From contig JBAIAA010000117.1 in NCBI GenBank assembly GCA_037893245.1, forward strand, positions 558,001 to 622,000: a stretch of 64,000 nucleotides of DNA. The letters are read 5' to 3'. The notes under the pieces are model-generated. The model saw nothing but the letters and a program-made list of their open reading frames with translations, had not been told where the DNA came from and did not search any database. Below are positions 2,194-38,895 of this stretch, one piece after another. The DNA is from Crossaster papposus. Lineage: Eukaryota > Echinodermata > Asteroidea > Velatida > Solasteridae. How positions within the stretch are numbered: the first letter of the stretch is position 1; each line of letters opens with the position of its first letter. Both the position numbers and the translations under genes were made by a program.

Positions 2194-5100
2194 CGCTCAA
2201 TAAGCGTAACAAACACTTTTCGGTTTTTCTCACCGTCAGAACACCAAATGGACATCCAACGCTCCCAAATGTTCTATAGTGCTCAATGAGCCTAACAAAC
2301 ACTTTTCGGGTTTTGTTCACCATCAGCTATAGGCCTCAATGAGCCTAACACACACTTTTCGGGTTTTTTCACCGTCAGAACACAAAATTGACTTCCAACA
2401 CTCCCAAATGGTCTATAGGCCTCAATGAGCCTAACAAACACTTTTCGGGTTTTTTTCACCGTCAGAACACAAAATAGAATTCCAACGCTCCCAAATGGTC
2501 TATAAGCGCTCATTTAGCCTAACAAACACTTTTCGGTTTTTCTCACCGTCAAAACACCAAATGGACTTTCAACACTCCCAAATGGTCTATGGCGCTCAAT
2601 AAGCCTAACAAACACTTTTCGGGTTTTTTCACAGTCAGAACACAAATTAGACTTCCAACGCTCCCAAATGGTCTATAGAGCTCATTTAGCCTAACAAAAA
2701 CTGTTCGGGTTTTGTTCACCATCAGAACACGAAATGGACTTCCAACGCTCCCAAATGGTCTATAGCGCTCAATGAGCCTAACAAACACTTCTCGGGTTTT
2801 GTTCACCATCAGAACACGAAATGGACTTCCAACGCTCCCAAATGGTCTATAGCGCTCAATGAGCCTAACAAACACTTTTCGGGTTTTTTCACCGTCAGAA
2901 CACAAATTAGACTTCCAACGCTCCCAAATGGTCTATAGCGCTCATTTAGCCTAACAAACACTTTTCGGGTTTTTTTCACCGTCAGAACACCAAATGGACT
3001 TCCAACACTCCCAAACGGTCTATAGGCCTCAACGAGCCTAACAAACACTTTTCGGTTTTTTTCACCGTCAGAACACAAAATAGTCTTCCAACGCTCCCAA
3101 ATGGTCTATAGAGCTCATTTAGCCTAACAAATCCTTTTCGTTTTTTTTCACCATCAGAACACGAAATGGACTTCCACTACTCCCAAATGGTCTATAGAGC
3201 TCATTGAGCCTAACAAACACTTTTCGGGTTTTTTCACCATCAGAACACGAAATGGACTTCCAATACTCCCAAATGGTCGATAGCGCTCAATAAGCGTAAC
3301 AAACACTTTTCGGTTTTTCTCACCGTCAAAACACCAAATGGACTTTCAACACTCCCAAATGGTCTATAGCGCTCAATAAGCCTAACAAACACTTTTCGGG
3401 TTTTTTCACAGTCAGAACACAAATTAGACTTCCAACGCTCCCAAATGGTCTATAGAGCTCATTTAGCCTAACAAAAACTTTTCGGGTTTTGTTCACCATC
3501 AGAACACGAAATGGACTTCCAACGCTCCCAAATGGTCTATAGCGTTCAATGAGCCTAACAAACACTTTTCGGTTTTTCTCACCGTCAGAACACCAAATGG
3601 ACATCCAACGCTCCCAAATGTTCTATAGTGCTCAATGAGCCTAACAAACACTTTTCGGGTTTTTTCACCGTCAGAACACAAAATAGACTTCCAACTCTCC
3701 CAAATGGTCTATAGAGCTCATTTAGCCTAACAAACACTTCTCGGGTTTTGTTCACCATCAGAACACGAAATGGACTTCCAACGCTCCCAAATGGTCTATA
3801 GCGCTCAATGAGCCTAACAAACACTTTTCGGGTTTTTTCACCATCAGAACACAAATTAGACTTCCAACGCTCCCAAATGGTCTATAGCGCTCATTTAGCC
3901 TAACATACACTTTTCGGGGTTTTTTCACCGTCAGAACACCAAATGGACTTCCAACACTCCCAAACGGTCTATAGGCCTCAATGAGCCTAACAAACACTTT
4001 TCGGTTTTTTTCACCGTCAGAACACAAAATATACTTCCAACGCGCCCAAATGGTCTATAGAGCTCATTTAGCCTAACAAATCCTTTTCGGTTTTTTTCAC
4101 CATCAGAACACGAAATGGACTTCCAATACTCCCAAATGGTCTATAGAGCTCATTGAGCCTAACAAACACTTTTCGGGTTTTTTCACCATCAGAACACGAA
4201 ATGGACTTCCAATACTCCCAAATGGTCGATAGCGCTCAATAAGCGTAACAAACACTTTTCGGTTTTTCTCACCGTCAAAACACCAAATGGACTTTCAACA
4301 CTCCCAAATGGTCTATAGCGATCAATAAGCCTAACAAACACTTTTCGGTTTTTTTCACGGTCAAAACACGAAATGGACTTCCAATACTCCCACATGGTCT
4401 ATAGACCTCAATGAGCCTAACAAACACTTTTCGGGTTTTCTTCACCGTCGAACACAAAATAGACTTCCAACGCTCCCAAATAGTCTATAGCGCTCATTTA
4501 GCCTAACAAACACTTTTCGGGTTTTTTCACCATCAGCTATAGGCCTCAATGAGCCTAACAAACACTTTTCGGTTTTTTTCACCGCTAGAACACCAAATGG
4601 ACATCCAACGCTCCCAAATGTTGTATAGTGCTCAATGAGCCTAACAAACACTTTTCGGTTTTTTTCACCGTCAGAACACAAAATAGACTTCCAACGCTCC
4701 CAAATGGTCTATAGAGCTCATTTAGCCTAACAAACACTTTTCGGTTTTTTTCACCGCCAGAACACCAAATGGACATCCAACGCTCCCAAATGGTCTATAG
4801 CGCTCAATGAGCCTAACAAACACTTTTCGGTTTTTTTCACCATCAGCTATAACCCTCAATGAGCCTAACAAACACTTTTCGGGTTTTTTCACCGTCAGAA
4901 CACAAAATAGACTTCCAACGCTCCCAAATGGTCTATAGAGCTCATTTAGCCTAACAAACACTTTTCGGGTTTTGTTCACCATCAGAACACGAAATGGACT
5001 TCCAACGCTCCCAAATGGTCTATAGCGCTCAATGAGCCTAACAAACACTTTTCGGTTTTTTTCACCATCAGCTATAGGCCTCAATGAGCCTAACAAACAC

Positions 5101-5246
5101 TTTTCGGGTTTTTTCACCGTCAGAACACAAAATAGACTTCCAACGCTCCTAAATGGTCTATAGAGCTCATTTAGCCTAACAAACACTTTTCGGGTTTTGT
5201 TCACCATCAGAACACGAAATGGACTTCCAACGCTCCCAAATGGTAG

Positions 5247-8037
5247 CGCTCAATGAGCCTAACTAACACTTTTCGGTTTTTCTCACCGTCAAAACACGAA
5301 ATGGACTTTCAACACTCCCAAATGGTCTATAGCGCTCATTTAGCCTAACAAACACTTTTCGGTTTTTTTCACCGCCAGAACACCAAATGGACATCCAACG
5401 CTCCCAAATGGTGTATAGTGCTCAATGAGCCTAACAAACACTTTTCGGTTTTTTTCACCGTCAGAACACAAAATAGACTTCCAACGCTCCCAAATGGTCT
5501 ATAGCGCTCATTTAGCCTAACAAACACTTTTCGGGTTTTTTTTCACCGTCAGAACACCAAATGGACTTCCAACACTCCCAAACGGTCTATAGGCCTCAAT
5601 GAGCCTAACAAACACTTTTCAAGTTTTTTCACCGTCAGAACACAAAATAGACTTCCAACGCTCCCAAATGGTCTATAGAGCTCATTTAGCCTAACAAACC
5701 CTTTTCGGTTTTTTTCACCATCAGAACACGAAATGGACTTCCAATACTCCCAAATGGTCTATAGAGCTCATTGAGCCTAACAAACACTTTTCGGTTTTTC
5801 TCACCGTCAGAACACCAAATGGACATCCAACGCTCCCAAATGTTCTATAGTGCTCAATGAGCCTAACAAACACTTTTCGGGTTTTGTTCACCATCAGCTA
5901 TAGGCCTCAATGAGCCTAGCAAACACTTTTCGGGTTTTTTCACCGTCAGAACACAAAATAGACTTCCAACGCTCCTAAATGGTCTATAAAGCTCATTTAG
6001 CCTAACAAACACTTTTCGGGTTTTGTTCACCATCAGAACACGAAATGGACTTCCAACGCTCCCAAATGGTAGCGCTCAATGAGCCTAACTAACACTTTTC
6101 GGTTTTTCTCACCGTCAAAACACGAAATGGACTTTCAACACTCCCAAATGGTCTATAGCGCTCAATAAGCCTAACAAACACTTCTCGGGTTTTTTCACCG
6201 TCAGAACACAAATTAGACTTCCAACGCTCCCAAATGGTCTATAGCGCTCATTTAGCCTAACAAACACTTTTCGGGGTTTTTTTCACCGTCAGAACACCAA
6301 ATGGACTTCCAACACTCCCAAACGGTCTATAGGCCTCAATGAGCCTAACAAACACTTTTCAAGTTTTTTCACCGTCAGAACACAAAATAGACTTCCAACG
6401 CTCCCAAATGGTCTATAGAGCTCATTTAGCCTAACAAACACTTTTCCGGTTTTTTTCACCATCAGAACACGAAATGGACTTCCAACGCTCCCAAATGGTC
6501 TATAGCGCTCAATGAGCCTAACAAACACTTTTCGGTTTTTTTCACCATCAGCTATAGGCCTCAATGAGCCTAACAAACACTTTTCGGGTTTTTTCACCGT
6601 CAGAACACAAAATAGACTTCCAACGCTCCTAAATGGTCTATAGAGCTCATTTAGCCTAACAAACACTTTTCGGGTTTTGTTCACCATCAGAACACGAAAT
6701 GGACTTCCAACGCTCCCAAATGGTAGCGCTCAATGAGCCTAACTAACACTTTTCGGTTTTTCTCACCGTCAAAACACGAAATGGACTTTCAACACTCCCA
6801 AATGGTCTATAGCGCTCAATAAGCCTAACAAACACTTCTCGGGTTTTTTCACCGTCAGAACACAAATTAGACTTCCAACGCTCCCAAATGGTCTATAGCG
6901 CTCATTTAGCCTAACAAACACTTTTCGGTTTTTTTTTCACCGTCAGAACACCAAATGGACTTCCAACACTCCCAAACGGTCTATAGGCCTCAATGAGCCT
7001 AACAAACACTTTTCAAGTTTTTTCACCGTCAGAACACAAAATAGACTTCCAACGCTCCCAAATGGTCTATAGAGCTCATTTAGCCTAACAAACCCTTTTC
7101 GGTTTTTTTCACCATCAGAACACAAAATGGACTTCCAATACTCCCAAATGGTCTATAGAGCTCATTGAGCCTAACAAACACTTTTCGGTTTTTCTCACCG
7201 TCAGAACACCAAATGGACATCCAACGCTCCCAAATGTTCTATAGTGCTCAATGAGCCTAACAAACACTTTTCGGGTTTTGTTCACCATCAGCTATAGGCC
7301 TCAATGAGCCTAGCAAACACTTTTCGGGTTTTTTCACCGTCAGAACACAAAATAGACTTCCAACGCTCCTAAATGGTCTATAAAGCTCATTTAGCCTAAC
7401 AAACACTTTTCGGGTTTTGTTCACCATCAGAACACGAAATGGACTTCCAACGCTCCCAAATGGTAGCGCTCAATGAGCCTAACTAACACTTTTCGGTTTT
7501 TCTCACCGTCAAAACACGAAATGGACTTTCAACACTCCCAAATGGTCTATAGCGCTCAATAAGCCTAACAAACACTTCTCGGGTTTTTTCACCGTCAGAA
7601 CACAAATTAGACTTCCAACGCTCCCAAATGGTCTATAGCGCTCATTTAGCCTAACAAACACTTTTCGGGGTTTTTTTCACCGTCAGAACACCAAATGGAC
7701 TTCCAACACTCCCAAACGGTCTATAGGCCTCAATGAGCCTAACAAACACTTTTCAAGTTTTTTCACTGTCAGAACACAAAATAGACTTCCAACGCTCCCA
7801 AATGGTCTATAGAGCTCATTTAGCCTAACAAACCCTTTTCGGTTTTTTTCACCATCAGAACACGAAATGGACTTCCAATACTCCCAAATGGTCTATAGAG
7901 CTCATTGAGCCTAACAAACACTTTTCGGTTTTTCTCACCGTCAGAACACCAAATGGACATCCAACGCTCCCAAATGTTCTATAGTGCTCAATGAGCCTAA
8001 CAAACACTTTTCGGGTTTTGTTCACCATCAGCTATAG
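5247..8037. repeat. 9-mer HOR cluster (740-bp type), four variants
   Basis: Successive units run 5247-6072 (826 bp), 6073-6726 (654 bp), 6727-7466 (740 bp) and 7467-8037 (partial, 571 bp). Each begins with the GAGCCTAACTAACAC monomer after the 82-bp monomer. The 740-bp unit has nine monomers: seven of 86 bp, one of 52 and one of 82, plus four T/G-run bases, which totals exactly 740. The 654-bp unit is an 8-mer; the 826-bp unit is a 10-mer that includes a GCCAGAACACC monomer. Diagnostic members are TTTTCAAG (short G-run), ACAAACCC, and GAGCCTAGCAAAC near 5915, 7309 and 8049. This unit is the apparent ancestor of monomers 5-12 of the 1,690-bp HOR. Confidence 0.9.
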
Positions 8038-8910
8038 GCCTCAATGAGCCTAGCAAACACTTTTCGGTTTTTTTCACCGTCAGAACACAAAATTGACTTC
8101 CAACACTCCCAAATGGTCTATAGGCCTCAATGAGCCTAACAAACACTTTTCGGTTTTTTTTCACCGTCAGAACACAAAATAGACTTCCAACGCTCCCAAA
8201 TGGTCTATAGCGCTCATTTAGCCTAACAAACAATTTTCGGGTTTTTTCACCATCAGCTATAGGCCTCAATGAGCCTAACAAACACTTTTCGGGTTTTTTC
8301 ACCGTCAGAACACAAAATAGAATTCCAACGCTCCCAAATGGTCTATAAGCGCTCATTTAGCCTAACAAACACTTTTCGGTTTTTTTCACAGTCAGAACAC
8401 AAATTAGACTTCCAACGCTCCCAAATGGTCTATAGAGCTCATTTAGCCTAACAACAACTTTTCGGGTTTTGTTCACCATCAGATCACGAAATGGACTTCC
8501 AACGCTCCCAAATGGTCTATAGCGCTCAATGAGCCTAACAAACACTTTTCGGGTTTTTTCACCGTCAGAACACAAATTAGACTTCCAACGCTCCCAAATG
8601 GTCTATAGCGCTCATTTAGCCTAACAAACACTTTTCGGGTTTTTTTCACCGTCAGAACACCAATTGGACTTCCAACACTCCCAAACGGTCTATAGGCCTC
8701 AATGAGCCTAACAAATACTTTTCGGTTTTTTTCACCGTCAGAACACAAAATAGACTTCCAACGCTCCCAAATGGTCTATAGAGCTCATTTAGCCTAACAA
8801 ATCCTTTTCGGTTTTTTTCACCATCAGAACACGAAATAGACTTCCAATACTCCCAAATGGTCTATAGAGCTCATTGAGCCTAACAAACACTTTTCGGGTT
8901 TTTTCACCAT
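8038..8910. repeat. GATCAC module, occurrence 1
   Basis: This stretch contains the ACAACAACTT monomer with GATCACGAAAT (GATCAC at 8482). The variant recurs at 12351, 20682, 25492, 32843, 37885 and 41827, each time among nearly the same neighbours: a CAATTTTCGG 52-bp monomer, a TAGAATTCC monomer ending CTATAAG, then the GATCAC monomer and a CACCAATTGG monomer. This occurrence lacks one 86-bp monomer (CACCAAATGGACTTTC type) that is present just upstream of GATCAC in the copies at 12.2, 20.5, 25.3, 32.7 and 37.7 kb. Confidence 0.85.
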
Positions 8911-11239
8911 CAGAACACGAAATGGACTTCCAATACTCCCAAATGGTCGATAGCGCTCAATAAGCGTAACAAACACTTTTCGGTTTTTCTCACCGTCAAA
9001 ACACCAAATGGACTTTCAACACTCCCAAATAGTCTATAGCGATCAATAAGCCTAACAAACACTTTTCGGGTTTTGTTCACCGTCAGAACACAAAATTGAC
9101 TTTCAACACTCCCAAACGGTCTATAGGCCTCAATGAGCCTAACAAACACTTTTCGGTTTTTTTCACCGTCAGAACACAAAATAGACTTCCAACGCTCCTA
9201 AATGGTCTATAGAGCTCATTTAGCCTAACAAATCCTTTTCGGTTTTTTTCACCATCAGAACACGAAATGGACTTCCAATACTCCCAAATGGTCTATAGAG
9301 CTCATTGAGCCTAACAAACACTTTTCGGCTTTTTTCACCATCAGAACACGAAATGGACTTCCAATACTCCCAAATGGTCGATAGCGCTCAATAAGCGTAA
9401 CAAACACTTTTCGGGTTTTTTCACGGTCAAAACACGAAATGGACTTCCAATACTCCCACATGGTCTATAGACCTCAATGAGCCTAACAAACACTTTTCGG
9501 GTTTTCTTCACCGTCGAACACAAAATAGACTTCCAACGCTCCCAAATAGTCTATAGCGCTCATTTAGCCTAACAAACACTTTTCGGGTTTTTTCACCATC
9601 AGCTATAGGCCTCAATGAGCCTAACAAACACTTTTCGGTTTGTTTCACCGCTAGAACACCAAATGGACATCCAACGCTCCCAAATGTTGTATAGTGCTCA
9701 ATGAGCCTAACAAACACTTTTCGGGTTTTTTCACCGTCAGAACACAAAATAGACTTCCAACGCTCCCAAATGGTCTATAGAGCTCATTTAGCCTAACAAA
9801 CACTTTTCGGTTTTTTTCACAGCCAGAACACCAAATGGACATCCAACGCTCCCAAATGTTGTATAGTGCTCAATGAGCCTAACAAACACTTTTCGGTTTT
9901 TTTCACCGTCAGAACACAAAATAGACTTCCAACGCTCCCAAATGGTCTATAGAGCTCATTTAGCCTAACAAACAATTTTCCGGTTTTGTTCACCATCAGA
10001 ACACAAAATGGACTTCCAACGCTCCCAAATGGTCTATAGCGCTCAATGAGCCTAACAAACACTTTTCGGTTTTTTTCACCATCACCTATAACCCTCAATG
10101 AGCCTAACAAACACTTTTCGGGTTTTTTCACCGTCAGAACACAAAATAGACTTCCAACGCTCCCAAATGGTCTATAGAGCTCATTTAGCCTAACAAACAC
10201 TTTTCGGGTTTTGTTCACCATCAGAACACGAAATGGACTTCCAACGCTCCCAAATGGTCTATAGCGCTCAATGAGCCTAACAAACACTTTTCGGTTTTTT
10301 TCACCATCAGCTATAGGCCTCAATGAGCCTAACAAACACTTTTCGGTTTTTTTCACCGTCAGAACACAAAATAGACTTCCAACGCTCCTAAATGGTCTAT
10401 AGAGCTCATTTAGCCTAACAAACACTTTTCGGGTTTTGTTCACCATCAGAACACGAAATGGACTTCCAACGCTCCCAAATGGTAGCGCTCAATGAGCCTA
10501 ACTAACACTTTTCGGTTTTTCTCACCGTCAAAACACGAAATGGACTTTCAACACTCCCAAATGGTCTATAGCGCTCAATAAGCCTAACAAACACTTTTCG
10601 GTTTTTTTCACCGTCAGAACACAAATTAGACTTCCAACGCTCCCAAATGGTCTATAGCGCTCATTTAGCCTAACAAACACTTTTCGGGTTTTTTGTCACC
10701 GTCAGAACACCAAATGGACTTCCAACACTCCCAAACGGTCTATAGGCCTCAATGAGCCTAACAAACACTTTTCAAGTTTTTTCACCGTCAGAACACAAAA
10801 TAGACTTCCAACGCTCACAAATGGTCTATAGAGCTCATTTAGCCTAACAAACCCTTTTCGGATTTTTTCACCATCAGAACACGAAATGGACTTCTAATAC
10901 TCCCAAATGGTCTATAGAGCTCATTGAGCCTAACAAACACTTTTCGGTTTTTCTCACCGTCAGAACACCAAATGGACATCCAACGCTCCCAACTGTTCTA
11001 TAGTGCTCAATGAGCCTAACAAACACTTTTCGGGTTTTGTTCACCATCAGCTATAGGCCTCAATGAGCCTAACAAACACTTTTCGGGTTTTTTCACCGTC
11101 AGAACACAAAATTGACTTCCAACACTCCCAAATGGTCTATAGGCCTCAATGAGCCTAACAAACACTTTTCGGGTTTTTTTCACCGTCAGAACACAAAATA
11201 GACTTCCAACGCTCCCAAATGGTCTATAGCGCTCATTTA

Positions 11240-11259
11240 GCCTAACAAACAATTTTTAG
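11240..11259 (+). repeat. 19-bp microduplication inside a monomer
   Basis: The segment TTAGCCTAACAAACAAT is repeated with a 19-bp spacing (TAG at 11238 and again at 11257), producing an aberrant 105-bp monomer. The paralogous segment near 35,420 lacks it: the offset between the two copies drops from 24,185 upstream to 24,166 downstream, exactly 19 bp. It is therefore private to this copy and arose after the two segments separated, unless it is an assembly slip. Confidence 0.9.
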
Positions 11260-14083
11260 CCTAACAAACAATTTTCGGGTTTTTTCACCGTCAGAACACA
11301 AAATTGACTTCCAACACTCCCAAATGGTCTATAGGCCTCAATGAGCCTAACAAACACTTTTCGGGTTTTTTTCACCGTCAGAACACAAATTAGACTTCCA
11401 ACGCTCCCAAATGGTCTATAGCGCTCATTTAGCCTAACAAACACTTTTCGATTTTTTTTTCACCGTCAGAACACCAAATGGACTTCCAACACTCCCAAAC
11501 GGTCTATAGGCCTCAATGAGCCTAACAAACACTTTTCAAGTTTGTTCACCGTCAGAACACAAAATAGACTTCCAACGATCCCAAATGGTCTATAGAGCTC
11601 ATTTAGCCTAACAAACCCTTTTCGGTTTTTTTCACCATCAGAACACGAAATGGACTTCCAATACTCCCAAATGGTCTATAGAGCTCATTGAGCCTAACAA
11701 ACACTTTTCGGTTTTTCTCACCGTCAGAACACCAAATGGACATCCAACGCTCCCAACTGTTCTATAGTGCTCAATGAGCCTAACAAACACTTTTCGGGTT
11801 TTGTTCACCATCAGCTATAGGCCTCAATGAGCCTAACAAACACTTTTCGGGTTTTTTCACCGTCAGAACACAAAATTGACTTCCAACACTCCCAAATGGT
11901 CTATAGGCCTCAATGAGCCTAACAAACACTTTTCGGGTTTTTTTCACCGTCAGAACACAAAATAGACTTCCAACGCTCCCTAATGGTCTATAGCGCTCAT
12001 TTAGCCTAACAAACAATTTTCGGGTTTTTTCACCATCAGCTATAGGCCTCAACGAGCCTAACAAACACTTTTCGTTTTTTTTCACCGTCAGAACACAAAA
12101 TAGAATTCCAACGCTCCCAAATGGTCTATAAGCGCTCATTTAGCCTAACAAACACTTTTCGGTTTTTCTCACCGTCAGAACACCAAATGGACTTTCAACA
12201 CTCCCAAATGGTCTATAGCGCTCAATAAGCCTAACAAACACTTTTCGGTTTTTTTCACAGTCAGAACACAAATTAGACTTCCAACGCTCCCAAATGGTCT
12301 ATAGAGCTCATTTAGCCTAACAACAACTTTTCGGGTTTTGTTCACCATCAGATCACGAAATGGACTTCCAACGCTCCCAAATGGTCTATAGCGCTCAATG
12401 AGCCTAACAAACACTTTTCGGGTTTTTTCACCGTCAGAACACAAATTAGACTTCCAACACTCCCAAACGGTCTATAGGCCTCAATGAGCCTAACAAACAC
12501 TTTTCGGTTTTTTTCACCGTCAGAACACAAAATAGACTTCCAACGCTCCCAAATGGTCTATAGAGCTCATTTAGCCTAACAAATCCTTTTCGGGTTTTTT
12601 CACCATCAGAACACGAAATAGACTTCCAATACTCCCAAATGGTCTATAGAGCTCATTGAGCCTAACAAACACTTTTCGGTTTTTTTCACCATCAGAACAC
12701 GAAATGGACTTCCAATACTCCCAAATGGTCGATAGCGCAAAATAAGCGTAACAAACACTTTTCGGTTTTTCTCACCGTCAAAACACCAAATGGACTTTCA
12801 ACACTCCCAAATAGTCTATAGCGATCAATAAGACTAACAAACACTTTTCGGGTTTTGTTCACCGTCAGAACACAAAATTGACTTCCACCACTCCCAAACG
12901 GTCTATAGGCCTCAATGAGCCTAACAAACACTTTTCGGTTTTTTTCACCGTCAGAACACAAAATAGACTTCCAACGCTCCTAAATGGTATATAGAGCTCA
13001 TTTAGCCTAACAAATCCTTTTCGGTTTTTTTCACCATCAGAACACGAAATGGACTTCCAATACTCCCAAATGGTCTATAGAGCTCATTGAGCCTAACAAA
13101 CACTTTTCGGGTTTTTTCACCATCAGAACACGAAATGGACTTCCAATACTCCCAAATGGTCGATAGCGCTCAATAAGCCTAACAAACACTTTTCGGTTTT
13201 TGTTCACCATCAGAACACCAAATGGACTTTCAACACTCCCAAATAGTCTATAGCGATCTATAAGCCTAAAAAACACTTTTCGGGTTTTTTCACCATCAGA
13301 ACACGAAATGGACTTCCAATACTCCCAAATGGTCGATAGCGCTCAATAAGCGTAACAAACACTTTTCGGTTTTTCTCACCGTCAGAACACCGAATAGACA
13401 TCCAACGCTCCCAAATGTTCTATAGTGCTCAATGAGCCTAACAAACACTTTTCGGGTTTTGTTCACCATCAGCTATAGGCCTCAATGAGCCTAACACACA
13501 CTTTTCGGGTTTTTTCACCGTCAGAACACAAAATTGACTTCCAACACTCCCAAATGGTCTATAGGCCTCAATGAGCCTAACAAACACTTTTCGGGTTTTT
13601 TCACAGTCAGAACACAAATTAGACTTCCAACGCTCCCAAATGGTCTATAGAGCTCATTTAGCCTAACAAAAACTGTTCGGGTTTTGTTCACCATCAGAAC
13701 ACGAAATGGACTTCCAACGCTCCCAAATGGTCTATAGCGCTCAATGAGCCTAACAAACACTTCTCGGGTTTTGTTCACCATCAGAACACGAAATGGACTT
13801 CCAACGCTCCCAAATGGTCTATAGCGCTCAATGAGCCTAACAAACACTTTTCGGTTTTTTTCACCGTCAGAACACAAATTAGACTTCCAACGCTCCCAAA
13901 TGGTCTATAGCGCTCATTTAGCCTAACAAACACTTTTCGGGTTTTTTTCACCGTCAGAACACCAAATGGACTTCCAACACTCCCAAACGGTCTATAGGCC
14001 TCAACGAGCCTAACAAACACTTTTCGGTTTTTTTCACCGTCAGAACACAAAATAGTCTTCCAACGCTCCCAAATGGTCTATAG

Positions 14084-15028
14084 AGCTCATTTAGCCTAAC
14101 AAATCCTTTTCGGTTTTTTTCACCATCAGAACACGAAATGGACTTCCACTACTCCCAAATGGTCTATAGAGCTCATTGAGCCTAACAAACACTTTTCGGG
14201 TTTTTTCACCATCAGAACACGAAATGGACTTCCAATACTCCCAAATGGTCGATAGCGCTCAATAAGCGTAACAAACACTTTTCGGTTTTTCTCACCGTCA
14301 AAACACCAAATGGACTTTCAACACTCCCAAATGGTCTATAGCGCTCAATAAGCCTAACAAACACTTTTCGGGTTTTTTCACAGTCAGAACACAAATTAGA
14401 CTTCCAACGCTCCCAAATGGTCTATAGAGCTCATTTAGCCTAACAAAAACTTTTCGGGTTTTGTTCACCATCAGAACACGAAATGGACTTCCAACGCTCC
14501 CAAATGGTAGCGCTCAATGAGCCTAACTAACACTTTTCGGTTTTTCTCACCGTCAAAACACGAAATGGACTTTCAACACTCCCAAATGGTCTATAGCGCT
14601 CAATAAGCCTAACAAACACTTTTCGGTTTTTTTCACCGTCAGAACACAAATTAGACTTCCAACGCTCCCAAATGGTCTATAGCGCTCATTTAGCCTAACA
14701 AACACTTTTCGGGTTTTTTGTCACCGTCAGAACACCAAATGGACTTCCAACACTCCCAAACGGTCTATAGGCCTCAATGAGCCTAACAAACACTTTTCAA
14801 GTTTTTTCACCGTCAGAACACAAAATAGACTTCCAACGCTCCCAAATGGTCTATAGAGCTCATTTAGCCTAACAAACCCTTTTCGGTTTTTTTCACCATC
14901 AGAACACGAAATGGACTTCCAATACTCCCAAATGGTCTATAGAGCTCATTGAGCCTAACAAACACTTTTCGGTTTTTCTCACCGTCAGAACACCAAATGG
15001 ACATCCAACGCTCCCAACTGTTCTATAG
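14084..15028. repeat. 11-mer partial HOR (945 bp) preceding the 1,690-bp array
   Basis: Eleven monomers equivalent to M1-M11 of the 1,690-bp HOR. The lengths sum correctly: 11 x 86, minus 4 for the 82-bp monomer, plus 3 run-length bases gives 945. It ends with the M11 type (CTCCCAACTGTTCTATAG) followed directly by M1, the same M20-to-M1 join seen between full units. M11 and M20 are near-identical, so this shorter form is what unequal exchange between M11 and M20 would produce. It carries GGGTTTTTTGTCACC in the M8 position, whereas the following units carry GGGTTTTTTGACACC. Confidence 0.9.
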
Positions 15029-15114
15029 TGCTCAATGAGCCTAACAAATCCTTTTCGGTTTTTTTCACCATCAGAACACGAAATGGACTTCCACTACTCC
15101 CAAATGGTCTATAG
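15029..15114 (+). repeat. Exemplar standard 86-bp monomer
   Basis: This copy runs from TGCTCAATGAGCC to CTATAG and is exactly 86 bp; the next monomer starts at 15115 with AGCTCATTGAGCC. It is the first monomer (M1) of the 1,690-bp higher-order repeat and carries the diagnostic variants ACAAATCC and TTCCACTACTCC. I place monomer boundaries directly after CTATAG. That choice is arbitrary for a tandem repeat but is used consistently here. Confidence 0.95.
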
Positions 15115-15372
15115 AGCTCATTGAGCCTAACAAACACTTTTCGGGTTTTTTCACCATCAGAACACGAAATGGACTTCCAATACTCCCAAATGGTCGATAG
15201 CGCTCAATAAGCGTAACAAACACTTTTCGGTTTTTCTCACCGTCAAAACACCAAATGGACTTTCAACACTCCCAAATGGTCTATAGCGCTCAATAAGCCT
15301 AACAAACACTTTTCGGGTTTTTTCACAGTCAGAACACAAATTAGACTTCCAACGCTCCCAAATGGTCTATAG

Positions 15373-26632: not shown

Positions 26633-28207
26633 AATACTCCCAAATGGTCTATAGAGCTCATTGAGCCTAACAAACACTTTTCGGGTTTTTTCACCATCAG
26701 AACACGAAATGGACTTCCAATACTCCCAAATGGTCGATAGCGCAAAATAAGCGTAACAAACACTTTTCGGTTTTTCTCACCGTCAAAACACCAAATGGAC
26801 TTTCAACACTCCCAAATAGTCTATAGCGATCAATAAGCCTAACAAACACTTTTCGGGTTTTGTTCACCGTCAGAACACAAAATTGACTTCCACCACTCCC
26901 AAACGGTCTATAGGCCTCAATGAGCCTAACAAACACTTTTCGGTTTTTTTCACCGTCAGAACACAAAATAGACTTCCAACGCTCCTAAATGGTCTATAGA
27001 GCTCATTTAGCCTAACAAACACTTTTCGGGTTTTTTTCACCGTCAGAACACCAATTGGACTTCCAACACTCCCAAACGGTCTATAGGCCTCAATGAGCCT
27101 AACAAACACTTTTCGGTTTTTTTCACCGTCAGAACACAAAATAGACTTCCAACGCTCCCAAATGGTCTATAGAGCTCATTTAGCCTAACAAATCCTTTTC
27201 GGTTTTTTTCACCATCAGAACACGAAATAGACTTCCAATACTCCCAAATGGTCTATAGAGCTCATTGAGCCTAACAAACACTTTTCGGGTTTTTTCACCA
27301 TCAGAACACGAAATGGACTTCCAATACTCCCAAATGGTCGATAGCGCAAAATAAGCGTAACAAACACTTTTCGGTTTTTCTCACCGTCAAAACACCAAAT
27401 GGACTTTCAACACTCCCAAATAGTCTATAGCGATCAATAAGCCTAACAAACACTTTTCGGGTTTTGTTCACCGTCAGAACACAAAATTGACTTCCACCAC
27501 TCCCAAACGGTCTATAGGCCTCAATGAGCCTAACAAACACTTTTCGGTTTTTTTCACCGTCAGAACACAAAATAGACTTCCAACGCTCCTAAATGGTCTA
27601 TAGAGCTCATTTAGCCTAACAAATCCTTTTCGGTTTTTTTCACCATCAGAACACGAAATGGACTTCCAATACTCCCAAATGGTCTATAGAGCTCATTGAG
27701 CCTAACAAACACTTTTCGGGTTTTTTCACCATCAGAACACGAAATGGACTTCCAATACTCCCAAATGGTCGATAGCGCTCAATAAGCGTAACAAACACTT
27801 TTCGGTTTTTCTCACCGTCAAAACACCAAATGGACTTTCAACACTCCCAAATAGTCTATAGCGATCTATAAGCCTAAAAAACACTTTTCGGGTTTTGTTC
27901 ACCGTCAGAACACAAAATTGACTTCCAACACTCCCAAATGGTCTATAGGCCTCAATGAGCCTAACAAACACTTTTCGGTTTTTTTCACCGTCAGAACACA
28001 AAATAGACTTCCAACGCTCCCAAATGGTCTATAGAGCTCATTTAGCCTAACAAACACTTTTCGGTTTTTGTTCACCATCAGAACACGAAATGGACTTCCA
28101 ACACTCCCAAATGGTCTATAGCGCTCAATGAGTCTAACAAACACTTTTCGGGTTTTTTCACCATCAGAACACGAAATGGACTTCCAATACTCCCAAATGG
28201 TCGATAG
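26633..28207. repeat. Reiterated GCGCAAAATAAGCG segments, end of super-unit copy 3
   Basis: Two further copies of the GGTCGATAGCGCAAAATAAGCG, AAATAGTCTATAGCGATC and TTCCACCACTCC series lie at 26741 and 27345, after the one at 25964. The 777- and 604-bp spacings show that the intervening stretch was trimmed differently each time. From about 27.6 kb the order matches 21.45-22.02 kb (offset 6,190), including GATCTATAAGCCTAAAAAACAC near 27,865. Confidence 0.8.
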
Positions 28208-31200
28208 CGCTCAATAAGCATAACAAACACTTTTCGGTTTTTCTCACCGTCAGAACACCAAATGGACATCCAACGCTCCCAAATGTTCTATAGTGCTCAA
28301 TGAGCCTAACAAACACTTTTCGGGTTTTGTTCACCATCAGCTATAGGCCTCAATGAGCCTAACACACACTTTTCGGGTTTTTTCACCGTCAGAACACAAA
28401 ATTGACTTCCAACACTCCCAAATGGTCTATAGGCCTCAATGAGCCTAACAAACACTTTTCGGTTTTTTTTCACCGTCAGAACACAAAATAGAATTCCAAC
28501 GCTCCCAAATGGTCTATAAGCGCTCATTTAGCCTAACAAACACTTTTCGGTTTTTCTCACCGTCAAAACACAAAATGGACTTTCAACACTCCCAAATGGT
28601 CTATGGCGCTCAATAAGCCTAACAAACACTTTTCGGGTTTTTTCACAGTCAGAACACAAATTAGACTTCCAACGCTCCCAAATGGTCTATAGAGCTCATT
28701 TAGCCTAACAAAAACTGTTCGGGTTTTGTTCACCATCAGAACACGAAATGGACTTCCAACGCTCCCAAATGGTCTATAGCGCTCAATGAGCCTAACAAAC
28801 ACTTCTCGGGTTTTGTTCACCATCAGAACACGAAATGGACTTCCAACGCTCCCAAATGGTCTATAGCGCTCAATGAGCCTAACAAACACTTTTCGGGTTT
28901 TTTCACCGTCAGAACACAAATTAGACTTCCAACGCTCCCAAATGGTCTATAGCGCTCATTTAGCCTAACAAACACTTTTCGGGGTTTTTTCACCGTCAGA
29001 ACACCAAATGGACTTCCAACACTCCCAAACGGTCTATAGGCCTCAACGAGCCTAACAAACACTTTTCGGTTTTTTTCACCGTCAGAACACAAAATAGTCT
29101 TCCAACGCTCCCAAATGGTCTATAGAGCTCATTTAGCCTAACAAATCCTTTTCGGTTTTTTTCACCATCAGAACACGAAATGGACTTCCACTACTCCCAA
29201 ATGGTCTATAGAGCTCATTGAGCCTAACAAACACTTTTCGGGTTTTTTCACCATCAGAACACGAAATGGACTTCCAATACTTCCAAATGGTCGATAGCGC
29301 TCAATAAGCGTAACAAACACTTTTCGGTTTTTCTCACCGTCAAAACACCAAATGGACTTTCAACACTCCCAAATGGTCTATAGCGCTCAATAAGCCTAAC
29401 AAACACTTTTCGGGTTTTTTCACAGTCAGAACACAAATTAGTCTTCCAACGCTCCCAAATGGTCTATAGAGCTCATTTAGCCTAACAAAAACTTTTCGGG
29501 TTTTGTTCACCATCAGAACACGAAATGGACTTCCAACGCTCCCAAATGGTCTATAGCGCTCAATGAGCCTAACAAACACTTTTCGGTTGTTCTCACCGTC
29601 AGAACACCAAATGGACATCCAACGCTCCAAAATGTTCTATAGTGCTCAATGAGCCTAACAAACACTTTTCGGTTTTTTTCACCGTCAGAACACAAAATAG
29701 ACTTCCAACTCTCCCAAATGGTCTATAGAGCTCATTTAGCCTAACAAACACTTCTCGGGTTTTGTTCACCATCAGAACACGAAATGGACTTCCAACGCTC
29801 CCAAATGGTCTATAGCGCTCAATGAGCCTAACAAACACTTTTCGGGTTTTTTCACCGTCAGAACACAAATTAGACTTCCAACGCTCCCAAATGGTCTATA
29901 GCGCTCATTTAGCCTAACATACACTTTTCGGGGTTTTTTCACCGTCAGAACACCAAATGGACTTCCAACACTCCCAAACGGTCTATAGACCTCAATGAGC
30001 CTAACAAACACTTTTCGGTTTTTTTCACCGTCAGAACACAAAATATACTTCCAACGCGCCCAAATGGTCTATAGAGCTCATTTAGCCTAACAAATCCTTT
30101 TCGGTTTTTTTCACCATCAGAACACGAAATGGACTTCCAATACTCCCAAATGGTCTATAGAGCTCATTGAGCCTAACAAACACTTTTCGGGTTTTTTCAC
30201 CATCAGAACACGAAATGGACTTCCAATACTCCCAAATGGTCGATAGCGCTCAATAAGCGTAACAAACACTTTTCGGTTTTTCTCAACGTCAAAACACCAA
30301 ATGGACTTTCAACACTCCCAAATGGTCTATAGCGATCAATAAGCCTAACAAACACTTTTCGGTTTTTTTCACGGTCAAAACACGAAATGGACTTCCAATA
30401 CTCCCACATGGTCTATAGACCTCAATGAGCCTAACAAACACTTTTCGGGTTTTCTTCACCGTCGCACACAAAATAGACTTCCAACGCTCCCAAATAGTCT
30501 ATAGCGCTCATTTAGCCTAACAAACACTTTTCGGGTTTTTTCACCATCAGCTATAGGCCTCAATGAGCCTAACAAACACTTTTCGGTTTTTTTCACCGCT
30601 AGAACACCAAATGGACATCCAACGCTCCCAAATGTTGTATAGTGCTCAATGAGCCTAACAAACACTTTTCGGTTTTTTTCACCGTCAGAACACAAAATAG
30701 ACTTCCAACGCTCCCAAATGGTCTATAGAGCTCATTTAGCCTAACAAACACTTTTCGGTTTTTTTCACCGCCAGAACACCAAATGGACATCCAACGCTCC
30801 CAAATGGTCTATAGCGCTCAATGAGCCTAACAAACACTTTTCGGTTTTTTTCACCATCAGCTATAACCCTCAATGAGCCTAACAAACACTTTTCGGGTTT
30901 TTTCACCGTCAGAACACAAAATAGACTTCCAACGCTCCCAAATGGTCTATAGAGCTCATTTAGCCTAACAAACACTTTTCGGGTTTTGTTCACCATCAGA
31001 ACACGAAATGGACTTCCAACGCTCCCAAATGGTCTATAGCGCTCAATGAGCCTAACAAACACTTTTCGGTTTTTTTCACCATCAGCTATAGGCCTCAATG
31101 AGCCTAACAAACACTTTTCGGGTTTTTTCACCGTCAGAACACAAAATAGACTTCCAACGCTCCTAAATGGTCTATAGAGCTCATTTAGCCTAACAAACAC

Positions 31201-34200
31201 TTTTCGGGTTTTGTTCACCATCAGAACACGAAATGGACTTCCAACGCTCCCAAATGGTAGCGCTCAATGAGCCTAACTAACACTTTTCGGTTTTTCTCAC
31301 CGTCAAAACACGAAATGGACTTTCAACACTCCCAAATGGTCTATAGCGCTCATTTAGCCTAACAAACACTTTTCGGGTTTTTTCACCGCCAGAACACCAA
31401 ATGGACATCCAACGCTCCCAAATGGTGTATAGTGCTCAATGAGCCTAACAAACACTTTTCGGGTTTTTTCACCGTCAGAACACAAATTAGACTTCCAACG
31501 CTCCCAAATGGTCTATAGAGCTCATTTAGCCTAACAAACACTTTTCCGGTTTTGTTCACCATCAGAACACGAAATGGACTTCCAACGCTCCCAAATGGTC
31601 TATAGCGCTCAATGAGCCTAACAAACACTTTTCGGTTTTTTTCACAATCAGCTATAGGCCTCAATGAGCCTAACAAACACTTTTCGGGTTTTTTTCACCG
31701 TCAGAACACAAAATAGACTTCCAACGCTCCTAAATGGTCTATAGAGCTCATTTAGCCTAACAAACACTTTTCGGGTTTTGTTCACCATCAGAACACGAAA
31801 TGGACTTCCAACGCTCCCAAATGGTAGCGCTCAATGAGCCTAACTAACACTTTTCGGTTTTTCTCACCGTCAAAACACGAAATGGACTTTCAACACTCCC
31901 AAATGGTCTATAGCGCTCAATAAGCCTAACAAACACTTCTCGGGTTTTTTCACCGTCAGAACACAAATTAGACTTCCAACGCTCCCAAATGGTCTATAGC
32001 GCTCATTTAGCCTAACAAACACTTTTCGGTTTTTTTTTCACCGTCAGAACACCAAATGGACTTCCAACACTCCCAAACGGTCTATAGGCCTCAATGAGCC
32101 TAACAAACACTTTTCAAGTTTTTTCACCGTCAGAACACAAAATAGACTTCCAACGCTCCCAAATGGTCTATAGAGCTCATTTAGCCTAACAAACCCTTTT
32201 CGGTTTTTTTCACCATCAGAACACGAAATGGACTTCCAATACTCCCAAATGGTCTATAGAGCTCATTGAGCCTAACAAACACTTTTCGGGTTTTGTTCAC
32301 CATCAGCTATAGGCCTCAATGAGCCTAGCAAACACTTTTCGGGTTTTTTCACCGTCAGAACACAAAATTGACTTCCAACACTCCCAAATGGTCTATAGGC
32401 CTCAATGAGCCTAACAAACACTTTTCGGGTTTTGTTCACCGTCAGAACACAAAATAGACTTCCAACGCTCCCAAATGGTCTATAGCGCTCATTTAGCCTA
32501 ACAAACAATTTTCGGGTTTTTTCACCATCAGCTATAGGCCTCAATGAGCATAACAAACACTTTTCGGGTTTTTTCACCGTCAGAACACAAAATAGAATTC
32601 CAACGCTCCCAAATGGTCTATAAGCGCTCATTTAGCCTAACAAACACTTTTCGGTTTTTCTCACCGTCAGAACACCAAATGGACTTTCAACACTCCCAAA
32701 TGGTCTATAGCGCTCAATAAGCCTAACAAACACTTTTCGGTTTTTTTCACAGTCAGAACACAAATTAGACTTCCAACGCTCCCAAATGGTCTATAGAGCT
32801 CATTTAGCCTAACAACAACTTTTCGGGTTTTGTTCACCATCAGATCACGAAATGGACTTCCAACGCTCCCAAATGGTCTATAGCGCTCAATGAGCCTAAC
32901 AAACACTTTTCGGGTTTTTTCACCGTCAGAACACAAATTAGACTTCCAACGCTCCCAAATGGTCTATAGCGCTCATTTAGCCTAACAAACACTTTTCGGG
33001 TTTTTTTCACCGTCAGAACACCAATTGGACTTCCAACACTCCCAAACGGTTTATAGGCCTCAATGAGCCTAACAAACACTTTTCGGTTTTTTTCACCGTC
33101 AGAACACAAAATAGACTTCCAACGCTCCCAAATGGTCTATAGAGCTCATTTAGCCTAACAAATCCTTTTCGGTTTTTTTCACCATCAGAACACGAAATAG
33201 ACTTCCAATACTCCCAAATGGTCTATAGAGCTCATTGAGCCTAACAAACACTTTTCGGGTTTTTTCACCATCAGAACACGAAATTGACTTCCAATACTCC
33301 CAAATGGTCGATAGCGCTCAATAAGCGTAACAAACACTTTTCGGTTTTTCTCACCGTCAAAACACCAAATGGACTTTCAACACTCCCAAATAGTCTATAG
33401 CGATCAATAAGCCTAACAAACACTTTTCGGGTTTTGTTCACCGTCAGAACACAAAATTGACTTCCAACACTCCCAAACGGTCTATAGGCCTCAATGAGCC
33501 TAACAAACACTTTTCGGTTTTTTTCACCGTCAGAACACAAAATAGACTTCCAACGCTCCTAAATGGTCTATAGAGCTCATTTAGCCTAACAAATCCTTTT
33601 CGGTTTTTTTCACCATCAGAACACGAAATGGACTTCCAATACTCCCAAATGGTCTATAGAGCTCATTGAGCATAACAAACACTTTTCGGTTTTTTTCACC
33701 ATCAGAACACGAAATGGACTTCCAATACTCCCAAATGGTCGATAGCGCTCAATAAGCGTAACAAACACTTTTCGGGTTTTTTCACGGTCAAAACACGAAA
33801 TGGACTTCCAATACTCCCACATGGTCTATAGACCTCAATGAGCCTAACAAACACTTTTCGGGTTTTCTTCACCGTCGAACACAAAATAGACTTCCAACGC
33901 TCCCAAATAGTCTATAGCGCTCATTTAGCCTAACAAACACTTTTCGGGTTTTTTCACCATCAGCTATAGGCCTCAATGAGCCTAACAAACACTTTTCGGT
34001 TTTTTTCACCGCTAGAACACCAAATGGACATCCAACGCTCCCAAATGTTGTATAGTGCTCAATGAGCCTAACAAACACTTTTCGGGTTTTTTCACCGTCA
34101 GAACACAAAATAGACTTCCAACGCTCCCAAATGGTCTATAGAGCTCATTTAGCCTAACAAACACTTTTCGGTTTTTTTCACAGCCAGAACACCAAATGGA

Positions 34201-34253
34201 CATCCAACGCTCCCAAATGGTCTATAGCGCTCAATGAGCCTAACAAACACTTT

Positions 34254-34268
34254 TCGTTTTTTAAACCA
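34254..34268 (+). repeat. Aberrant T-run/CACC box in a 52-bp monomer
   Basis: The usual CGG, T-run, CACC segment is replaced by CGTTTTTTAAACC, with loss of a G and replacement of TC by AA. I saw no other copy of this exact form. The corresponding monomer in super-unit copy 1 (near 10,070) has the normal box but a different point change (ATCACCTATA). This is a local lesion private to this copy. Confidence 0.85.
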
Positions 34269-35102
34269 TCAGCTATAACCCTCAATGAGCCTAACAAACA
34301 CTTTTCGGGTTTTTTCACCGTCAGAACACAAAATAGACTTCCAACGCTCCCAAATGGTCTATAGAGCTCATTTAGCCTAACAAACACTTTTCGGGTTTTG
34401 TTCACCATCAGAACACGAAATGGACTTCCAACGCTCCCAAATGGTCTATAGCGCTCAATGAGCCTAACAAACACTTTTCGGTTTTTGTCACCATCAGCTA
34501 TAGGCCTCAATGAGCCTAACAAACACTTTTCGGGTTTTTTCACCGTCAGAACACAAAATAGACTTCCAACGCTCCTAAATGGTCTATAGAGCTCATTTAG
34601 CCTAACAAACACTTTTCGGGTTTTGTTCACCATCAGAACACGAAATGGACTTCCAACGCTCCCAAATGGTAGCGCTCAATGAGCCTAACTAACACTTTTC
34701 GGTTTTTCTCACCGTCAAAACACGAAATGGACTTTCAACACTCCCAAATGGTCTATAGCGCTCAATAAGCCTAACAAACACTTTTCGGTTTTTTTCACCG
34801 TCAGAACACAAATTAGACTTCCAACGCTCCCAAATGGTCTATAGCGCTTATTTAGCCTAACAAACACTTTTCGGGTTTTTTTACCGTCAGAACACCAAAT
34901 GGACTTCCAACACTCCCAAACGGTCTATAGGCCTCAATGAGCCTAACAAACACTTTTCAAGTTTTTTCACCGTCAGAACACAAAATAGACTTCCAACGCT
35001 CCCAAATGGTCTATAGAGCTCATTTAGCCTAACAAACCCTTTTCGGTTTTTTTCACCATCAGAACACGAAATGGACTTCCAATACTCCCAAATGGTCTAT
35101 AG

Positions 35103-36470
35103 AGCTCATTGAGCCTAACAAACACTTTTCGGTTTTTCTCACCGTCAGAACACCAAATGGACATCCAACGCTCCCAACTGTTCTATAGTGCTCAATGAGC
35201 CTAACAAACACTTTTCGGGTTTTGTTCACCATCAGCTATAGGCCTCAATGAGCCTAACAAACACTTTTCGGTTTTTTTCACCGTCAGAACACAAAATTGA
35301 CTTCCAACACTCCCAAATGGTCTATAGGCCTCAATGAGCCTAACAAACACTTTTCGGTTTTTTTTCACCGTCAGAACACAAAATAGACTTCCAACGCTCC
35401 CAAATGGTCTATAGCGCTCATTTAGCCTAACAAACAATTTTCGGGTTTTTTCACCGTCAGAACACAAAATTGACTTCCAACACTCCCAAATGGTCTATAG
35501 GCCTCAATGAGCCTAACAAACACTTTTCGGTTTTTTTTCACCGTCAGAACACAAATTAGACTTCCAACGCTCCCAAATGGTCTATAGCGCTCATTTAGCC
35601 TAACAAACACTTTTCGGTTTTTTTTTCACCGTCAGAACACCAAATGGACTTCCAACACTCCCAAACGGTCTATAGGCCTCAATGAGCCTAACAAACACTT
35701 TTCAAGTTTTTTCACCGTCAGAACACAAAATAGACTTCCAACGCTCCCAAATGGTCTATAGAGCTCATTTAGCCTAACAAACCCTTTTCGGTTTTTTTCA
35801 CCATCAGAACACGAAATGGACTTCCAATACTCCCAAATGGTCTATAGAGCTCATTGAGCCTAACAAACACTTTTCGGTTTTTCTCACCGTCAGAACACCA
35901 AATGGACATCCAACGCTCCCAACTGTTCTATAGTGCTCAATGAGCCTAACAAACACTTTTCGGGTTTTGTTCACCATCAGCTATAGGCCTCAATGAGCCT
36001 AACAAACACTTTTCGGGTTTTTTCACCGTCAGAACACAAAATTGACTTCCAACACTCCCAAATGGTCTATAGGCCTCAATGAGCCTAACAAACACTTTTC
36101 GGGTTTTTTTCACCGTCAGAACACAAAATAGACTTCCAACGCTCCCAAATGGTCTATAGCGCTCATTTAGCCTAACAAACAATTTTCGGGTTTTTTCACC
36201 ATCAGCTATAGGCCTCAATGAGCCTAACAAACACTTTTCGGGTTTTTTCACCGTCAGAACACAAAATAGAATTCCAACGCTCCCAAATGGTCTATAAGCG
36301 CTCATTTAGCCTAACAAACACTTTTCGGTTTTTCTCACCGTCAGAACACCAAATGGACTTTCAACACTCCCAAATGGTCTATAGCGCTCAATAAGCCTAA
36401 CAAACACTTTTCGGTTTTTTTCACAGTCAGAACACAAATTAGACTTCCAACGCTCCCAAATGGTCTATAG
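35103..36470. repeat. 17-mer HOR, 1,368 bp, copy 1
   Basis: Seventeen monomers: fourteen of about 86 bp and three 52-bp, plus eight run-length or insertion bases, which total exactly 1,368. It starts with AGCTCATTGAGCC and an AACTGTTCTATAG end. It contains two CAATTTTCGG monomers, one full and one 52-bp, and a TAGAATTCC...CTATAAG monomer. It corresponds to about 10.94-12.31 kb of super-unit copy 1, where it is present once. Confidence 0.92.
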
Positions 36471-37838
36471 AGCTCATTGAGCCTAACAAACACTTTTCGG
36501 TTTTTCTCACCGTCAGAACACCAAATGGACATCCAACGCTCCCAACTGTTCTATAGTGCTCAATGAGCCTAACAAACACTTTTCGGGTTTTGTTCACCAT
36601 CAGCTATAGGCCTCAATGAGCCTAACAAACACTTTTCGGTTTTTTTCACCGTCAGAACACAAAATTGACTTCCAACACTCCCAAATGGTCTATAGGCCTC
36701 AATGAGCCTAACAAACACTTTTCGGTTTTTTTTCACCGTCAGAACACAAAATAGACTTCCAACGCTCCCAAATGGTCTATAGCGCTCATTTAGCCTAACA
36801 AACAATTTTCGGGTTTTTTCACCGTCAGAACACAAAATTGACTTCCAACACTCCCAAATGGTCTATAGGCCTCAATGAGCCTAACAAACACTTTTCGGGT
36901 TTTTTTCACCGTCAGAACACAAATTAGACTTCCAACGCTCCCAAATGGTCTATAGCGCTCATTTAGCCTAACAAACACTTTTCGGTTTTTTTTTCACCGT
37001 CAGAACACCAAATGGACTTCCAACACTCCCAAACGGTCTATAGGCCTCAATGAGCCTAACAAACACTTTTCAAGTTTTTTCACCGTCAGAACACAAAATA
37101 GACTTCCAACGCTCCCAAATGGTCTATAGAGCTCATTTAGCCTAACAAACCCTTTTCGGTTTTTTTCACCATCAGAACACGAAATGGACTTCCAATACTC
37201 CCAAATGGTCTATAGAGCTCATTGAGCCTAACAAACACTTTTCGGTTTTTCTCACCGTCAGAACACCAAATGGACATCCAACGCTCCCAACTGTTCTATA
37301 GTGCTCAATGAGCCTAACAAACACTTTTCGGGTTTTGTTCACCATCAGCTATAGGCCTCAATGAGCCTAACAAACACTTTTCGGGTTTTTTCACCGTCAG
37401 AACACAAAATTGACTTCCAACACTCCCAAATGGTCTATAGGCCTCAATGAGCCTAACAAACACTTTTCGGGTTTTTTTCACCGTCAGAACACAAAATAGA
37501 CTTCCAACGCTCCCAAATGGTCTATAGCGCTCATTTAGCCTAACAAACAATTTTCGGGTTTTTTCACCATCAGCTATAGGCCTCAATGAGCCTAACAAAC
37601 ACTTTTCGGTTTTTTTCACCGTCAGAACACAAAATAGAATTCCAACGCTCCCAAATGGTCTATAAGCGCTCATTTAGCCTAACAAACACTTTTCGGTTTT
37701 TCTCACCGTCAGAACACCAAATGGACTTTCAACACTCCCAAATGGTCTATAGCGCTCAATAAGCCTAACAAACACTTTTCGGTTTTTTTCACAATCAGAA
37801 CACAAATTAGACTTCCAACGCTCCCAAATGGTCTATAG
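36471..37838. repeat. 17-mer HOR, 1,368 bp, copy 2
   Basis: An exact-length tandem repeat of the preceding unit. The join is at AGCTCATT followed by GAGCC, where the parent sequence would have AGCTCATTTAGCC. After it, at 37,839, the parent order resumes with the ACAACAACTT/GATCAC monomer. Differences from copy 1 are few and include CACAATCAG in place of CACAGTCAG near 37,792. Confidence 0.92.
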
Positions 37839-38895
37839 AGCTCATTTAGCCTAACAACAACTTTTCGGGTTTTGTTCACCATCAGATCACGAAATGGACT
37901 TCCAACGCTCCCAAATGGTCTATAGCGCTCAATGAGCCTAACAAACACTTTTCGGGTTTTTTCACCGTCAGAACACAAATTAGACTTCCAACGCTCCCAA
38001 ATGGTCTATAGCGCTCATTTAGCCTAACAAACACTTTTCGGGTTTTTTTCACCGTCAGAACACCAATTGGACTTCCAACACTCCCAAACGGTCTATAGGC
38101 CTCAATGAGCCTAACAAACACTTTTCGGTTTTTTTCACCGTCAGAACACAAAATAGACTTCCAACGCTCCCAAATGGTCTATAGAGCTCATTTAGCCTAA
38201 CAAATCCTTTTCGGTTTGTTTCACCATCAGAACACGAAATAGACTTCCAATACTCCCAAATGGTCTATAGAGCTCATTGAGCCTAACAAACACTTTTCGG
38301 GTTTTTTCACCATCAGAACACGAAATGGACTTCCAATACTCCCAAATGGTCGATAGCGCAAAATAAGCGTAACAAACACTTTTCGGTTTTTCTCACCGTC
38401 AAAACACCAAATGGACTTTCAACACTCCCAAATAGTCTATAGCGATCAATAAGCCTAACAAACACTTTTCGGGTTTTGTTCACCGTCAGAACACAAAATT
38501 GACTTCCAACACTCCCAAACGGTCTATAGGCCTCAATGAGCCTAACAAACACTTTTCGGTTTTTTTCACCGTCAGAACACAAAATAGACTTCCAACGCTC
38601 CTAAATGGTCTATAGAGCTCATTTAGCCTAATAAATCCTTTTCGGTTTTTTTCACCATCAGAACACGAAATGGACTTCCAATACTCCCAAATGGTCTATA
38701 GAGCTCATTGAGCCTAACAAACACTTTTCGGGTTTTTTCACCATCAGAACACGAAATGGACTTCCAATACTCCCAAATGGTCGATAGCGCTCAATAAGCG
38801 TAACAAACACTTTTCGGTTTTTCTCACCGTCAAAACACCAAATGGACTTTCAACACTCCCAAATAGTCTATAGCGATCTATAAGCCTAAAAAACA

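Follow-up and report, generated by a model that had tools for sequence, protein, structure and literature searches.

The stretch analysed here, called the window below, is 64,000 bp of the genome of the sea star Crossaster papposus (assembly GCA_037893245.1, contig JBAIAA010000117.1, hereafter C117, positions 558001–622000). It consists throughout of an 86-bp satellite (1–64000) with 93.3% identity to the consensus; 780 monomers, whole or truncated, were counted, in 273 distinct forms, and the array continues on both sides in the contig. The window was therefore studied together with its flanks, C117 458–558 kb and 622–722 kb, as a 264-kb stretch in which negative positions lie left of the window start; both 100-kb flanks are also satellite apart from one insertion. 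The subject of this work is the block at 2.2–39.0 kb of the window, where four neighbouring segments, A to D, carry common modules above the level of the monomer and of the short higher-order repeat (HOR). The features described within the window are on the forward strand.

Segment A (2188–13333), seen in the monomer alignments, serves as the reference form of the super-unit and has an internal duplication at an offset of 1,394 bp. Segment B (13334–22011) has modules m1, m3, m5, m6 and m7 in common with A, in the same order, and bears an amplification, a 1,690-bp HOR in about 3.2 copies (14677–20092; 99.76% identity over 44 monomers). Segment C (22012–28201) has m4–m7 in common with A and contains a duplication at a 1,381-bp offset (25613–27942; 99.68% over 949 bp) and another of 971 bp. 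Segment D (28202–39041), by its offset copies and a site test a probable hybrid with an A-like left and a B/C-like right part, contains a 1,368-bp tandem duplication (35097–37832; 99.78% over 1,368 bp). The lengths are about 11.1, 8.7, 6.2 and 10.8 kb, with different deletions, and the start-to-start distances are 11,146, 8,678 and 6,190 bp. An earlier note on this DNA, made from its letters alone, had described the differing lengths and internal amplifications correctly; its right end at 38,895 has to be moved, since homology extends to about 39,041.

For the comparison of the segments, monomers were cut out, edit distances were computed and the four segments were aligned with affine gaps. 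Such an alignment preserves order by construction, so its score is the test. All six pairings show common modules in one order, with 105 near-identical monomer pairs for A–D, 65 for B–D, 50 each for A–B and C–D, 45 for B–C and 35 for A–C. Coverage is highest for A–D (77% of A and 80% of D), against 36% of A and 49% of B in A–B and 26% of A and 47% of C in A–C. The six scores sum to 352.2. When segments of these four lengths were placed at random in the 264 kb, none of 250 placements reached this sum (maximum 318.3), nor did any of the 143 placements clear of the claimed region (maximum 240.5), although the placements overlap and at most about seven non-overlapping ones fit into 264 kb, so that these tallies overstate the independent evidence. 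Taken singly, A–D and B–D were never matched or beaten among the 143 clear placements, A–C once, B–C 10 times and C–D 16 times; A–B, with 40 placements as high, is by itself no better than random. A null drawn within the window, with 40 pairs per comparison, equalled or exceeded the observed score 14 times for A–B, 13 for A–C, 0 for A–D, 2 for B–C, 1 for B–D and 2 for C–D. Moreover, the sum peaked at zero shift among 17 shifts tried (the 16 non-zero ones were all lower), random inner borders equalled it in 1 of 150 trials, and the 130-monomer windows clear of the region all scored 19 or less against A or D. The colinearity of the four segments is real and above the placement null, and both the common module order and the further level of organisation that the earlier note had proposed are borne out by these alignments.

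The segments are related to each other in different ways. C 24158–26648 is a copy of B 19348–21838 (offset 4,810; 99.72% over 30 monomers), C 26994–28201 is a copy of B at an offset of 6,191, and m6 shows no substitution between B and C in 1,143 columns; over modules of at least 500 bp, the A, B/C and D lineages are 0.35–1.22% apart. D is 99.46% identical to A at an offset of 26,014 over 3,311 bp and 99.57% identical to B at an offset of 17,203 over 2,577 bp. A post hoc test used the sites that distinguish A from B. In m1a, m1b and m3, D has the A variant at 10 of them and the B variant at 3; in m5–m7 the counts are 7 for A and 14 for B (Fisher p=0.032), or 4 and 11 if m5 is left out (p=0.021). 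One of the three m5 copies of B (B3) was used. By position, the informative sites place the switch from A-like to B-like variants at 34917–35002. There are also structural markers: between m6 and m7, B, C and D have one monomer more than A, and in this monomer D shows 0/87 differences both to B and to C; and the last 260 bases of D, past the end of A, have 0/260 differences to B, 2/260 to C and 22/262 to A. Because the site test, the extra monomer common to B and C, and the B-like right extension point the same way, D is probably, and most simply, a hybrid from a misaligned exchange and not a fourth independent deletion product. The block can no longer be described as a single unit, with a shared start, present in four tandem versions: B and C are partial against A, C is in large part a copy of B, and D aligns best with the left part of A plus the right part of B.

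The signature by which the four starts had been recognised is present, but it does not mark them alone. CCTAACACACAC occurs exactly four times in the window, at 2344, 13490, 22168 and 28358, and GGTCGATAG and GTTCTATAG are found at all four segment starts, with one mismatch in the signature of D (CGCTCAATAAGCA). The start triplet of a full, a truncated and a full monomer lies at 2188–2412 in A, 13334–13558 in B (2 substitutions from A in 225), 22012–22236 in C (4 substitutions in 225) and 28202–28426 in D. The exact composite signature occurs 9 more times in the 100 kb left of the window (at -583, -23,093, -30,035 and six places further left), and in a search with the 207-bp stretch 2194–2400, for which 40 candidates were scored, 32 among the 40 matches listed are near-exact copies in C117 40–230 kb. 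The start of A is straddled by the right copy (305–3020; 99.96% over 33 monomers) of a 2,768-bp tandem duplication, whose left copy (-2463 to about 252) includes the signature at -583. The homology between 20803–22150 and 26994–28340 crosses the starts of both C and D, and the first 2.5 kb of A have relatives as far left as -99.6 kb. As the signature recurs outside the block, is imperfect in D, lies within a duplication in A and is crossed by C/D homology at the start of D, it is not a unit border.

The diagonals predicted at 11,146, 8,678 and 6,190 proved weak. When the 17,720 offsets from 5 kb upward are ranked by shared 40-mers, these three come 174th, 744th and 222nd, the strongest is 26,014 bp, and 6,191 ranks 17th. 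The simple-diagonal test was replaced by the gapped monomer alignment, and unrestricted local alignment was useless, as it joined the whole array along near diagonals; long-offset chains were obtained once local alignment was confined to offsets from 5 kb upward and gaps were penalised more steeply. The top chain, with a score of 105, pairs 2188–21752 with 28202–38955, that is, D with the left part of A and then the right part of B. Five chains score at least 60 and lie at five separate places, the other four (86, 68, 64 and 60) with different content. Long-offset duplication is thus general in the array, and the claimed region is its strongest case.

Close copies are mostly local in the array as a whole. 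Among 1,041 sampled blocks of 12 monomers, 328 have a close copy (at most 6 edits), and the nearest best copy lies at 1–2 kb for 82 of them, 2–4 kb for 120, 4–8 kb for 71, 8–16 kb for 27 and 16–32 kb for 28; all 328 are therefore within 32 kb, whereas uniform placement would put about 254 beyond this distance. To the right of about 4 kb, an 8-kb similarity map has a largely block-diagonal pattern; the left part and 28–60 kb show faint similarity to each other, and the left part of the array (100 kb or more) is not clearly divided. The number of pairs spanning each border dips to 158 near 4.2 kb and to 78–96 at 38–43 kb, and more strongly to 8 near 67 kb, 10–11 at 116–121 kb and 12–13 near 155–157 kb; by these dips the block edges are graded, not sharp. 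No diagonal run of at least 8 monomers crosses 39,042, and three end there. Changes in size keep the monomer register: of the 317 phase breaks counted in the 264 kb, 308 are one recurrent monomer truncation of 34–35 bp, and the remaining 9 fall into four other types. The truncated monomer type, 52–53 bp long with a 34-bp deletion, makes up 307 of the 3,133 monomers of the window and flanks, about a tenth.

Three marks of unequal homologous exchange are seen in the array: similarity that is local, with looser pairs reaching further; size changes in register; and a probable hybrid unit, D, with modest statistical support and with structural markers. Together with the colinearity and the offsets, which are direct observations, they make unequal exchange the best explanation, as the earlier note had suggested. 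We assume, with a probability of roughly 0.77, that the block at 2.2–39.0 kb is the product of homology-guided, in-register unequal exchange with occasional offsets of 5–26 kb. Nearby stretches would exchange unequally in register, either by crossover between sister chromatids or by break-induced replication that restarts out of register. Frequent events of about 0.7–4 kb would make and delete short HORs, and rarer events with offsets of about 5–26 kb would copy whole groups of modules. A and D would then be a pair of distant copies, a large part of C would have been copied from B, and D would join an A-type left part to a B/C-type right part; no selected function would be needed for the block. 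The recombination chemistry, the sizes of the events and their order are what we infer here.

Simulations of neutral tandem duplication and deletion with mutation were consistent with this. When event sizes were heavy-tailed, with a median of about 2 kb and a maximum of about 33 kb, the best chain at long offsets scored 171–305 in 7/7 runs, against 105 observed, and nearest copies at 16–32 kb appeared in 5/7 runs. Capped simulations gave fewer blocks with close copies (0.066–0.231 vs 0.315). In these models no special unit is needed, yet rare large-offset events are, because capped simulations fall short of the chain score and of the copies at 16–32 kb. Several points weigh against unequal exchange as we propose it. 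Events capped at 3.4, 4.8 and 10 kb reached a chain of 105 in 0/6, 1/12 and 4/6 runs, and none of the 24 capped runs had, to two decimals, nearest copies at 16–32 kb, where the real array has 28/328, so that the account leans on large-offset events whose cause it leaves unexplained. The simulations were hand-chosen and unfitted, with 1,073–2,395 distinct monomers vs 998 observed. With the cut relaxed to at most 8 edits over 8 monomers, 3,060 block pairs are obtained, and 523 of them are separated by more than 32 kb, the widest by 253 kb; older or weaker similarity extends further than the nearest close copies. The site test for the hybrid is modest, its split point having been picked after the distances were seen. 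Finally, crossover and break-induced replication are indistinguishable here.

The alternative that survives best, though we consider it unlikely, is that an intact super-unit of 10–11 kb was tandemly copied to four and that each copy then underwent its own deletions and amplifications. The module order common to all four, the nearly full length of A and D, and a sum score that is highest at the proposed borders among the tested shifts would agree with such a history, but the right part of D groups with B and C and not with A, the C/D homology runs across the start of D, A–B colinearity alone is not above random (40/143), and the first 2.5 kb of A have relatives far to the left. Furthermore, weaker chains exist at four other places, and neutral simulations give such chains. 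Somewhat less likely still is a two-tier process, in which frequent events of 1–4 kb are accompanied by a separate class of 10–26 kb events acting mostly within blocks of tens of kb; partners would then be restricted as if by chromatin loops or replication units, and block edges would be physical limits of exchange, but the graded edges make this less likely. An assembly artefact, in which collapsed or mis-joined satellite reads produced the repeated segments, is very improbable: near-identical repeats (100.00% over 2,213 bp; 99.95% over 4,276 bp) are hard to assemble, yet the A, B/C and D lineages, 0.35–1.22% apart, should be separable with accurate long reads. Next to no weight can be given to the view that the start signature is merely a common monomer combination and the segments not specially related, as might be read from its recurrence elsewhere in the contig and the weak diagonals, because the colinearity beats all 250 placements and no clear 130-monomer window exceeds 19 against A or D; the four-segment placement test has mostly refuted chance recurrence. 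Equally implausible is end joining by micro-homology repair in place of homology-guided exchange, although end joining is reported to have been argued for maize centromere events (PMC8997354), as the monomer phase is kept, with only 9 phase breaks beside the recurrent truncated monomer in 3,133 monomers.

As to the surroundings of the block, the satellite is present at C117 positions 1, 20, 40 and 300 kb, and by sparse samples the array edge is at about 800 kb. Pattern positions in C117:1–8000 recur with a 3,793-bp period, which suggests that a regular HOR of several kb lies in the leftmost part of the array. The sole non-satellite stretch detected in the 264 kb is a non-LTR retroelement inside the satellite at approximately C117:662,391–667,440, with an endonuclease and reverse transcriptase frame and a first frame with a weak esterase-like match. 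A second tandem repeat with 63/66-bp periods adjoins the 86-bp array (5/5 3-kb samples from C117 0.9–1.6 Mb); a coding role for it was rejected, as its longest open frame has 359 codons of about 1,000 per sample and none runs through. A third tandem repeat, with a 54-bp period, was sampled at C117 3.5 and 3.8 Mb. Genome-wide (1.02-Gb assembly), a 34-base pattern of the satellite has 7,903 matches in the orientation seen here and 273 in the opposite one, and the family is not confined to C117, since contigs C2 and C79 are among the matches listed. In single-strand folding, the monomer is no more stable than shuffled sequences (z 0.25). The core of the CENP-B box is TTCGNNNNANNCGGG; it has 0 exact matches on both strands of the 264 kb, so that by this mark the array does not belong to the CENP-B-binding satellites. 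In the mitochondrial sequence, cox1 is followed by nad4L and cox2 and preceded by nad1 on the opposite strand, these three genes having been recognised by eye, and three of the four tRNAs found ahead of cox1 are also on the opposite strand; such a gene order would fit a sea star. A Rubisco search gave no match, which argues against a plant. Elsewhere in the assembly, contig C8 (5.3 Mb) holds an uninterrupted COX1-family frame of 675 amino acids at 5,207,163–5,211,509, between two other frames on the same strand, and further COX1 matches at 2.87 Mb; C8 may be the genome of a bacterial companion.

In the text of the published papers searched, figures and supplements being outside the search, three monomer stretches of 15–16 bases were not found, and none of the 8 papers listed in a search on echinoderm or sea-star satellites is, by its title, about a sea-star centromeric satellite. 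According to one survey, most species are without rich HOR structure (PMC10153287), so that a sea-star example keeps some interest; the block had been called unusual, and the survey favours this, but the neutral simulations yield such chains. As in Willard-type HORs, copies of the units are far more alike than their monomers (70 listed of 84 diagonal runs are 98.76–100% identical, and random monomer pairs are a median of 10 edits apart), but unit length and monomer order do not stay constant through a long series of copies; there are four, of unequal length and with different deletions. Like the cascading HORs of human chromosome 15 (PMC11050224), the block has recurring monomer types and subfragments repeated inside a larger unit; those HORs, however, have 429 and 164 copies, mostly canonical, and here the four copies are irregular, with internal subrepeats and no canonical copy or length. 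Repeats on more than two levels have also been described as secondary, tertiary and quartic HOR in the human hornerin gene (PMC9584774), which differs in its 39-bp repeat within a gene and its regular multiples of up to 1.4 kb. Human alpha-satellite arrays have domains and subdomains made by crossovers (PMC2853522) and evolutionary layers with relatively sharp transitions (PMC9859433). The present array resembles them in its neighbouring blocks with their own variants and in the change of similarity between blocks, and differs in having short irregular HORs in place of one dominant HOR, graded block edges, and another monomer and organism. Should such edges prove not to vary from one individual to another, they would help to find out what restricts recombination within satellites. 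The closest counterpart is Smith's 1976 model, in which satellites evolve by unequal exchange (as described in PMC8997354), or its break-induced-replication variant, with nested HORs, local copies, in-register deletions and duplications, and hybrid units; changes that are in register, mostly local, duplicating or deleting, and accompanied by a hybrid fit either form. Nothing tested conflicts with this model, to which the tail of 10–26 kb offsets adds a quantitative detail. This kind of organisation is already known, and the block is a new example that fits textbook expectations: a worked sea-star satellite in which third-level repeats and hybrid units would come from local unequal exchange, and in which the sizes of the exchanges may partly be read from the sequence.

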